Virus record (IMG/VR): IMGVR_UViG_3300030519_000042
Span: 1 to 20,554 of that record
DNA: 20,554 nucleotides
Origin: a virus
Strand: one strand, 5' to 3'
A model generated the notes under the pieces. That model searched no databases. It was not told where the DNA came from and saw only the letters and a list, made by a program, of their open reading frames with translations. This document shows positions 18,870-20,211 of this stretch, piece by piece. Every line of letters begins with the position of its first letter. The stretch's first letter is position 1. A program made the position numbers and the translations under genes.

Positions 18870-19088
18870 CTATTGCAGCCCAACCCCTTCCGGCGGTTTT
18901 GCGGCCATCAAATTGGCGTAGGCGTGCAAGCCTGGCACGAGCGCGTTGACTAGCGCTACCGCTTCAATAAAGCCGATCGTGGCTGACATGCCCTCGCCGC
19001 TTTGGCCGTCGATCAGTTCAATGTGCATTGATCCGTTGTCGCAGACCCACATGCGGACGATGGCCGGCCGCCGGATTTCATCGGTCAT
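18870..19088 (-). CDS. Conserved-looking 72-aa phage protein, unknown
   Basis: 72 residues; last gene of a minus-strand operon, its ATG overlapping the stop of the acyl-carrier-like gene by ATGA. N-terminal beta strands (RRPAIVRMWVCDNGSMHIELIDGQSG) followed by a helical segment (ATIGFIEAVALVNALVPGLHAYANLMA). No family recognised. The tight coupling and the convergent end with the lysis gene (four bases apart) argue that it is real. Nothing in the sequence tells a function; co-expression with the carrier-like protein and the methyltransferase is the only clue. Confidence 0.62.
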   Translation of the reverse strand: MTDEIRRPAIVRMWVCDNGSMHIELIDGQSGEGMSATIGFIEAVALVNALVPGLHAYANLMAAKPPEGVGLQ

Positions 19089-19321
19089 GACGCGCGCTTA
19101 TCAATTAGCGCGACGATCGAGGCGACGGTTGTTGATCCGCTAAATTCATCGTCGGACAGCTCGACATCGAAATGATCTTCCACGGCCATCATCACCTCTA
19201 TGCGGCTCAAGTCGTCGGTTTCCAGATCGGCGAACAGGCACGCTTCGGGCGTCACCTTTTCTGGGTCGCATTTGAGGGTGCTGGCGATGATGGATCGGAC
19301 AGTTTCTAGGGTTGAGGTCAT
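19085..19321 (-). CDS. Acyl carrier protein-like, serine replaced by Asp
   Basis: 78 residues, the exact size of bacterial acyl carrier protein, with the helix order of the family: LETVRSIIASTL (helix 1), loop CDPEKVTPEACLFADLE, then helix 2 DDLSRIEVMMAVEDHFDVEL, and helix 4 TVASIVALIDKR. The acidic surface patch (EVMMAVEDHFDVELSDDE) matches the enzyme-docking helix. Family members carry D-S-L at the start of helix 2, with Ser holding 4'-phosphopantetheine; here the codons are GAC GAC TTG, giving D36-D37-L38. Without that Ser it cannot be a normal carrier. Both flanking joins are 4-base overlaps (ATGA). It may bind acyl-carrier partner enzymes as a decoy or act as a structural module. Origin and role unknown. 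Confidence 0.85.
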   Translation of the reverse strand: MTSTLETVRSIIASTLKCDPEKVTPEACLFADLETDDLSRIEVMMAVEDHFDVELSDDEFSGSTTVASIVALIDKRAS

Positions 19322-20211
19322 GTGCTTGCATCCATGTAAGCGCCTATGAAGTTGGCCGCCGTTTCCGCGTCGATGGCATCGCCGTAATTCCGCAATCGTC
19401 CCATACGGGCGGGAGCCTCATCAACCAACGGGCATGTGCCGGGTTCAACCGGCCTATACGGGCCATCTCGGCAGAGGAGCCAGTCAGCGCCGGGCCTTCG
19501 TGGATCACCTGGTTGCCTAAAGATTCGCCCTTCGACTTCCATCCCCGCTCGTCTAATGATGCCGAATGTGGTGTCCGAAAATCCCGCAGAGTAGGTGTGT
19601 GCCATCCTGACATTTGCACCACGTTCTCCAATGTCACGGTAGCTTTTGACCCGTCCGGTCTGAGGCCACTCGCCGTCGTTCCAAGGGGCACGCTCTGCCC
19701 ACCGCTCGGCGTTGTTGGCGTCGGCCACCCAGAAGTATCGTTGTCTGATATGCGCGCCGGAGAAGCCCGCAGCTGGTATATCAGGCGACCCGAAGGCGTA
19801 GCCTGCGTCTTCCATGTCAGACGATACAAGATCGATCCACGCGTGCGCGTCATCAGATTGCTCACCAAAGCACACGTCAGGCCGGCGCTTGAGGATGAGC
19901 GGAAACCATGACGGCCAAAGATGGCGCGGGTCTTCGAAACCTTTTTTGAGGCCGGCGACGCTAAATGGTCCGCAAGGACAGGAACCGGTCCAAACAGGTC
20001 TGTCATCAGGCCATCCGGCCACGCGAAGGGCATATGACCAGACGCCGCATCCGGCAAAGAAATGACATTGACTGAATCCGTGGAGATCGTCCGGCTGAAC
20101 GGCTTGGATTTTTCGTTCATCAACAACTCCGTGGGCAATCGCGCCAGCTTCGATCAAATGTCGTAAAGTCGCGGCTTTCTGCTTATCCGGTTCATTATAC
20201 CAAGCGGTCAC
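19318..20211 (-). CDS. DNA (cytosine-5) methyltransferase
   Basis: 297 residues from GTG 20211, overlapping the upstream stop as GTGA. It transfers methyl from SAM to cytosine C5. Motifs in order: I at 51-56 (FFAGCG, SAM binding), IV at 79-84 (PCGPFS, nucleophile C80; Gln of the usual PCQ is Gly), VI at 115-118 (FGEQ, catalytic E117), VIII at 155-158 (IRQR), X at 277-280 (GDAI). The N-terminus (AGAIAHGVVDERKI...HGFSQCHFFAGCG) and TGSCPC, DPRHLWPSWF are typical of the phage family. The target-recognition region between VIII and X is short. Most of it is overlapped in another frame by a second coding region. Likely protects phage DNA from host restriction. Confidence 0.92.
   Translation of the reverse strand: MTAWYNEPDKQKAATLRHLIEAGAIAHGVVDERKIQAVQPDDLHGFSQCHFFAGCGVWSYALRVAGWPDDRPVWTGSCPCGPFSVAGLKKGFEDPRHLWPSWFPLILKRRPDVCFGEQSDDAHAWIDLVSSDMEDAGYAFGSPDIPAAGFSGAHIRQRYFWVADANNAERWAERAPWNDGEWPQTGRVKSYRDIGERGANVRMAHTYSAGFSDTTFGIIRRAGMEVEGRIFRQPGDPRRPGADWLLCRDGPYRPVEPGTCPLVDEAPARMGRLRNYGDAIDAETAANFIGAYMDAST
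19344..20120 (-). CDS. Overlapping (nested) GWPTP-family protein in methyltransferase gene
   Basis: 258 residues, wholly inside the methyltransferase gene in another frame of the same strand. ATG 20120 has GGAG six bases upstream (20127-20130 on the plus strand). The protein does not look like a random frame: MTDLFGP, RAIFGRHGFRSSSSAGL, SILYRLTWKTQATPSGR, ISDNDTSGWPTPTTPSGG, RPDGSKATVTLENVV, SGWHTPTLRDF, and NPAHARWLMRLPPVWDDC. I recall predicted phage and prophage proteins with exactly these 'LTWK..(D/A)TP.GR', 'GWPTP' and 'PAH.RWLMGLPP.WD' blocks, annotated as hypothetical or methyltransferase-associated. The shared DNA explains the pairing: the same bases read WVADA in one frame and GWPTP in the other. 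Function unknown; whether it is expressed is untested. Confidence 0.6.
   Translation of the reverse strand: MNEKSKPFSRTISTDSVNVISLPDAASGHMPFAWPDGLMTDLFGPVPVLADHLASPASKKVSKTRAIFGRHGFRSSSSAGLTCALVSNLMTRTRGSILYRLTWKTQATPSGRLIYQLRASPARISDNDTSGWPTPTTPSGGQSVPLGTTASGLRPDGSKATVTLENVVQMSGWHTPTLRDFRTPHSASLDERGWKSKGESLGNQVIHEGPALTGSSAEMARIGRLNPAHARWLMRLPPVWDDCGITAMPSTRKRRPTS
20127..20130 (-). promoter_or_regulatory. Internal Shine-Dalgarno for nested gene
   Basis: GGAG on the minus strand, six bases before ATG 20120, within the methyltransferase coding region. It gives the nested frame its own plausible entry point. Confidence 0.5.

Follow-up and report, generated by a model that had tools for sequence, protein, structure and literature searches.

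In multispecific Bacillus phage enzymes, the recognition domains lie between motifs VIII and IX, and these enzymes have a protective role. The small polypeptide of M.EcoHK31I is reportedly read from an overlapping alternative frame, with both polypeptides said to be required; the primary paper on it is reportedly that of Lee, Kam and Shaw (1995, NAR 23:103). In the passages of PMC3404938 that deal with it, M.EcoHK31I (YGGCCR) is a two-polypeptide C5 methyltransferase whose large subunit carries motifs I–VIII and X and whose small subunit carries motif IX, with the predicted target-recognition domain (TRD) assigned to the large subunit. The same passages describe M.AquI as split in the variable region, the alpha chain having motifs I–VIII and the beta chain part of the variable region together with motifs IX–X (PMC3404938). 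Multispecific C5 methyltransferases with tandem target-recognition domains are described for Bacillus phages SPR, SP-beta, and phi3T in the relevant part of PMC8936443.

The window, by which is meant the whole stretch of 20,554 nucleotides analysed here (IMG/VR record IMGVR_UViG_3300030519_000042), contains a methyltransferase gene (A) and, within it, a second frame (B), which lies over its whole length inside A and is the +1 frame of A (Table 1). The initial annotation had described a 258-codon frame with ATG and GGAG running through the methyltransferase gene, and such a frame was recovered as an open frame at 19344–20138 on the minus strand, with 264 codons from a TTG at 20138 and 258 from the ATG at 20120. 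The pairings it quoted proved exact, FWVADA of A being SGWPTP of B and GRLRNYGDAI of A being DDCGITAMPS of B. The GTG start of A shares GTGA with the stop of the upstream gene and the stop of A shares ATGA with the ATG of the next gene, so that A is part of a tight operon. Directly after A comes a gene (19085–19321) for an acyl carrier protein of small size (phrog_5934, 5e-14), which is unexpected next to a phage methyltransferase gene.

Table 1. Positions of the two overlapping genes and their motifs in the window.
Feature	Coordinates	Strand	Description	Evidence or remark
Gene A	19318..20211	-	297 aa; predicted catalytic (alpha) subunit of C5-cytosine methyltransferase	PF00145, phrog_363, AF2 model
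Gene B	19344..20120	-	Nested +1 frame, 258 aa from ATG; proposed specificity (beta) subunit	phrog_1008, selection
B internal start	20118..20131	-	ATG 20120-20118, GGAG upstream (CGGAGTTGTTGATG)	
A motif I	20011..20061	-	FFAGCGVWSYALRVAGW	Comes after motif II/III-like segment
A motif IV	19960..19992	-	WTGSCPCGPFS, with catalytic Cys	
A motif VIII	19720..19758	-	GAHIRQRYFWVAD	+1 reading is B ...SGWPTP
B helix + beta-hairpin	19758..19895	-	SILYRLTWKTQATPSGRLIYQLRAS	Helix 76-92, strands 99-107 and 113-121; block pLDDT up to 82-88
B cassette 1	19605..19727	-	WPTPTTPSGGQSVPLGTTASGLRPDGSKATVTLENVVQMSG	Relatives first in L033-L036, second in L194 and L101
B cassette 2	19470..19604	-	WHTPTLRDFRTPHSASLDERGWKSKGESLGNQVIHEGPALTGSSA	48-62% identical in L034, L194, L068, L235, and L116, at ordinal positions 3-4
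B motif IX	19401..19448	-	LNPAHARWLMRLPPVW	On B, not A; spacing as in HhaI LHPRECARVMGYPDSY
A motif X	19369..19407	-	RMGRLRNYGDAID	Overlaps B C-terminus

Gene A matched PF00145 (2.8e-8) and phrog_363 (1.4e-59) and contains motifs I–VIII and X, with the PC..FS of motif IV and the catalytic fold present; its AF2 model aligned with M.HhaI throughout its length, at Z 14.3 and an rmsd of 2.9 over 167 residues. A pattern search for motif IX in A's own frame found it in 0 of the loci L001–L269. A is a C5-cytosine DNA methyltransferase without motif IX in its own chain. A conserved block ahead of motif X is retained (ADWLLCRDG...PVEPG) and could contact DNA too. The part of A that lies opposite the B cassettes is for the most part (residues 180–221) predicted with very low confidence (AF2). 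At its N-terminus (20011–20211, residues 1–67), a segment resembling HhaI motifs II–III (YNE.D..AA, VDER) precedes motif I (FFAG.G.WS.AL), which is an unusual order; residue 1 of A pairs with HhaI residue 34 (AF2/VIA), and A of a Paenibacillus phage, unlike that of the window, has the usual motif order.

The openness of the nested frame is only modestly unlikely in the window alone, where 8 of the 300 resampled synonymous versions of A proved equally or more open in +1. The initial annotation had pointed to stop codons in the nested frame of relatives as a check; in the loci first retrieved from IMG/VR with the A or B protein as query, the +1 frame was open over most of A in 112 of 112, and a comparably long +2 frame occurred in 0 of these 112. 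Between loci, B proteins share an identity of 0.46, whereas A by itself would predict 0.27. The codon-position check that had also been proposed agreed with a second coding frame: differences per site at positions 1, 2, and 3 of A were 0.17, 0.11, and 0.18 in the overlap (pairs 10–20% different) and 0.05, 0.04, and 0.28 in the non-overlapping 5' part, so that third-position change of A is depressed where B is encoded (0.18 versus 0.28).

Selection was assessed with an OLGenie-style count over 47 independent pairs, with flanking genes handled alike as the control. B gave a dNN/dNS of 0.61 (0.55–0.68) and a dSN/dSS of 0.46 (0.39–0.56), and A a dNN/dSN of 0.48, whereas the flanking-gene control gave 0.85 (0.75–1.00), 0.97 (0.78–1.25), and 0.14, respectively. 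The suggestion that one stretch holds two conserved readings has thus been put on a measured footing by wobble suppression and by these ratios. In the N-terminal zone of B (the first ~75 residues, over A motifs I and IV), constraint on B was weak (0.81, 0.57) and A stood at 0.18; in the helix-hairpin zone over A motifs VI–VIII, both frames were constrained, with a dNN/dNS of 0.54 for B. In the cassette zone between A motifs VIII and X, A was neutral at 1.01 (0.92–1.11) and B remained at 0.56 and 0.42, and where motif IX of B lies opposite the C-block and motif X of A, both frames were again constrained. The A frame was nonetheless open across the cassette zone in 239 of 239 loci versus 13.8 expected; because A is neutral yet always open there, it must be translated through to motif X. 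An internal ATG with a Shine-Dalgarno sequence and 60 open codons was present in 51 of 78 non-redundant loci, compared with 6.5 expected from synonymous resampling. The nested frame B is real and is under purifying selection.

The B protein matched phrog_1008 (2.3e-22, over residues 19–196 of the window ORF) and phrog_31772 (2.1e-15), both labelled DNA methyltransferase, and had no match in Pfam, NCBIfam, or PADLOC. On these profile matches B is a member of the phage family phrog_1008. The statement in the initial annotation that the second product has no known function therefore does not hold, as both frames are annotated in the records of Escherichia coli phage K1H and Paenibacillus phage DevRi, and the part of PMC3404938 on M.EcoHK31I already places motif IX on the small subunit of a two-polypeptide enzyme. 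From its N-terminus, B consists of a weakly constrained region, a helix and hairpin (TWK..TPSG....L..S), the cassettes, and a C-terminal LNPAHxRWLMxLPPxW. Each B contains 1–6 cassettes with a median length of 36 residues, each starting W-P-T-P; 42 of 55 cassette clusters occur at more than one ordinal position, and clusters reappear across different loci. The motif IX pattern was found in the +1 frame of 255 of 269 loci, the window B having MRLP where MGxP is usual, and this C-terminal motif is colinear with motif IX of HhaI but weak in a single-chain profile search. The structure model of B was poor overall (pLDDT 57.6) and good only in the helix-hairpin and the C-terminal helix; a fold search with it returned nothing above Z 3.1, the model being too weak for a conclusion, and a search of solved-structure sequences with the B profile gave chance matches only (troponin, E 4). 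Taken by its sequence features, B is most likely the target-recognising half of one DNA-methylating enzyme. Of the earlier proposal that the companion regulates or guides the methyltransferase, guiding fits a B with motif IX and a cassette region, and regulating found no support.

The locus set comprised 269 loci gathered with A or B queries and with profile searches of viral and genome contigs. A and B were both present and overlapping in all 269 of these, with B in +1 in 268, and phage database matches of B (225 records) sit at the same places as those of A. Loci found with the B of a Paenibacillus phage comprised 57 +1 overlaps and 3 in-frame fusions among 60, and among 38 additional loci, drawn from phage records and from genomes of Pseudomonadota, 36 were +1 overlaps. 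Matches to phrog_1008 occurred in 17 of 299 genomes, all searched within one phylum, Pseudomonadota, that of Caballeronia, and nearly all loci from this genome search have the same +1 overlap. The nested layout of the window recurs in Paenibacillus-type phages, and the register of A motif VIII against the 'TW..SG...L..S..RT....WPTP' of B is identical in proteo-, firmicute-, and actinophages. In profile comparisons, B matched the B of Bacillota phages at 99.7% (hhalign, E 3.6e-25, 197 columns), and its match to the actinophage B, which holds cassettes together with motifs IX and X, was moderate (93%, E 3.5e-7, 145 columns). B is also homologous to a region with LPTP cassettes and motif IX inside single-chain enzymes, the motif IX match being moderate (93.5%, E 2.2e-7). 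One such chain, gp76 of mycobacteriophage Rita, matched phrog_363 over its length, and its residues 196–388 matched phrog_1008 (E 2e-61).

Annotation of these loci is uneven, one frame being named in most records, the other in some, and both in few. In Stenotrophomonas phage SOVA965, the ORF annotated as 'DNA-cytosine methyltransferase' is B (L273, 2484–2984) and the A reading is unannotated; a group of unannotated contigs (L324, 1454–2191) has the same layout. Both were rejected as cases of standalone B, since A is readable in the other frame. The search for GWPTP proteins without an overlapping methyltransferase, which the initial annotation had recommended, yielded in-frame fusions and single chains, and no standalone B was found with phrog_1008 and several B queries. 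Among the loci retrieved with the B of the Paenibacillus phage, L399, L402, and L407 have A-like and B-like parts naturally fused in frame. L143 (2846–4751) holds a tandem of two overlapping A/B pairs, and L031 (2254–3750) has an HNH-endonuclease-like insertion within the overlap that leaves both the A and the B frame open and is reminiscent of the hidden HNH in the ShiLan element (PMC11855218).

The occurrence of the same register in all these phage groups suggests that they share an ancestor that was already doubly coding, although repeated changes of frame might also have produced it, and a recent origin of B by overprinting was dropped because this register is found in very distant phages. 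It is likely that one ancient overlap in one register was inherited by phages of Pseudomonadota, Bacillota, and Actinomycetota, with the +1 frame encoding shuffling recognition cassettes and motif IX and the 0 frame the catalytic chain with a neutral, always-open linker able to accommodate any cassette.

On the evidence of sequence, A and B very probably form one C5-cytosine methyltransferase as its two subunits, coded by the same DNA in frames that overlap, with B as the specificity (beta) subunit. M.EcoHK31I offers an experimental precedent for such a division, and the multispecific Bacillus phage enzymes one for recognition domains in tandem. Features that count against this reading are the poor model of B, the moderate strength of the 93% profile matches, the TRD predicted on the large subunit of M.EcoHK31I, the conserved block of A ahead of motif X, the MRLP in motif IX of the window, and the weak constraint on the first ~75 residues of B. 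A, as the alpha subunit, would hold the catalytic and cofactor motifs I–VIII plus the C-terminal motif X, and its portion over the cassette zone would be a flexible linker, kept open to reach motif X. B would be translated in the +1 frame of the same transcript, beginning at an internal ATG of its own, and would contribute motif IX along with a series of exchangeable cassettes for target recognition; as B would supply both, the enzyme would be active only as an A–B complex and B would set the sequence methylated. We infer the physical complex, target recognition by the cassettes, and a likely use in which the phage modifies its own DNA against host restriction.

The view that no B protein exists, and that the frame is open and conserved as a by-product of a conserved A and high GC, can draw on the resamplings (8 of 300 as open, for the window alone) and on the position of several B motifs over conserved A motifs. 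It is already contradicted, and has next to no probability, in light of the wobble suppression, the omega values below 1 with a control near 1, the constraint on B exactly where A is neutral, the start with Shine-Dalgarno in 51 of 78 loci against 6.5, and the existence of in-frame fusions. Hardly more credible is an independent B, a regulator or anti-restriction factor merely sharing the locus: B carries the motif IX that A is without, and nearly all searched loci show it overlapping or fused to a C5 methyltransferase and never alone, even though the lack of a Pfam, NCBIfam, or PADLOC match would suit such a protein.

Programmed frameshifting that joins A and B in one chain is very improbable, as two opposite shifts would be required, B is equipped with a start and a ribosome-binding site of its own, and A is open to motif X in every locus; in its favour, single-chain homologues are known, and a +1 followed by a -1 shift would put the cassettes and IX of B back between VIII and X of A. 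It is also unlikely that B gives motif IX only, with recognition residing on A and the WPTP cassettes serving otherwise. The conserved C-terminal block on A and the TRD predicted on the large subunit of M.EcoHK31I, in the part of PMC3404938 concerned, would agree with this, but A is neutral from motif VIII to its C-terminal block, the cassettes of single-chain enzymes lie between VIII and IX, where TRDs lie, and the size and tandem arrangement of the cassettes fit the multispecific phage enzymes.

No account of this A/B overlap was found in the open-access literature searched, which is no proof of absence. The protein family and the two-chain principle are already known; apparently undescribed are the fixed-register conservation in phages of Pseudomonadota, Bacillota, and Actinomycetota and the shuffling of cassettes in doubly coding DNA. 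The locus presents a same-strand overlap of genes in DNA phages that is long and conserved very widely and whose two products can both be assigned to one enzyme, and would account for the many phage 'Dcm' genes that seem to be without motif IX and a recognition domain. If the two-subunit reading is true, the methylation specificity of many phages sits on a gene usually omitted by standard annotation, the annotated gene expressed alone may yield a dead enzyme, and the B cassettes may indicate a natural library of modules that set methylation specificity. Overlap evolution also becomes testable, as A is neutral in one zone, B weak in another, and both are constrained elsewhere.

Likened by motif layout, the A/B pair of the window resembles M.EcoHK31I, having motifs I–VIII and X on one chain and IX on the other, and B likewise lies in an overlapping frame, which is +1 in 268 of the 269 loci. 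In M.EcoHK31I the predicted TRD belongs to the large subunit, whereas in the present locus B carries the cassettes and the variable region of A evolves neutrally. Two actinophage loci (L299 and L302) are closer to M.AquI, as their A ends after motif VIII and their +1 frame carries cassettes, IX, and X with a two-frame overlap of ~190 bases, whereas in the window motif X remains on A and B is fully nested. Like the enzymes of SPR, SP-beta, and phi3T, the window's pair is phage-encoded and has cassettes in tandem, here putative recognition modules, but those enzymes are a single chain in a single frame and the array of the window is on a separate chain in the other frame. In Rita gp76 and its relatives, motif VIII is followed by LPTP cassettes, a motif IX reading EWMMGWP, and motif X, all within a single chain and, unlike in the window, a single frame, with the N-terminal block of B still readable in +1.
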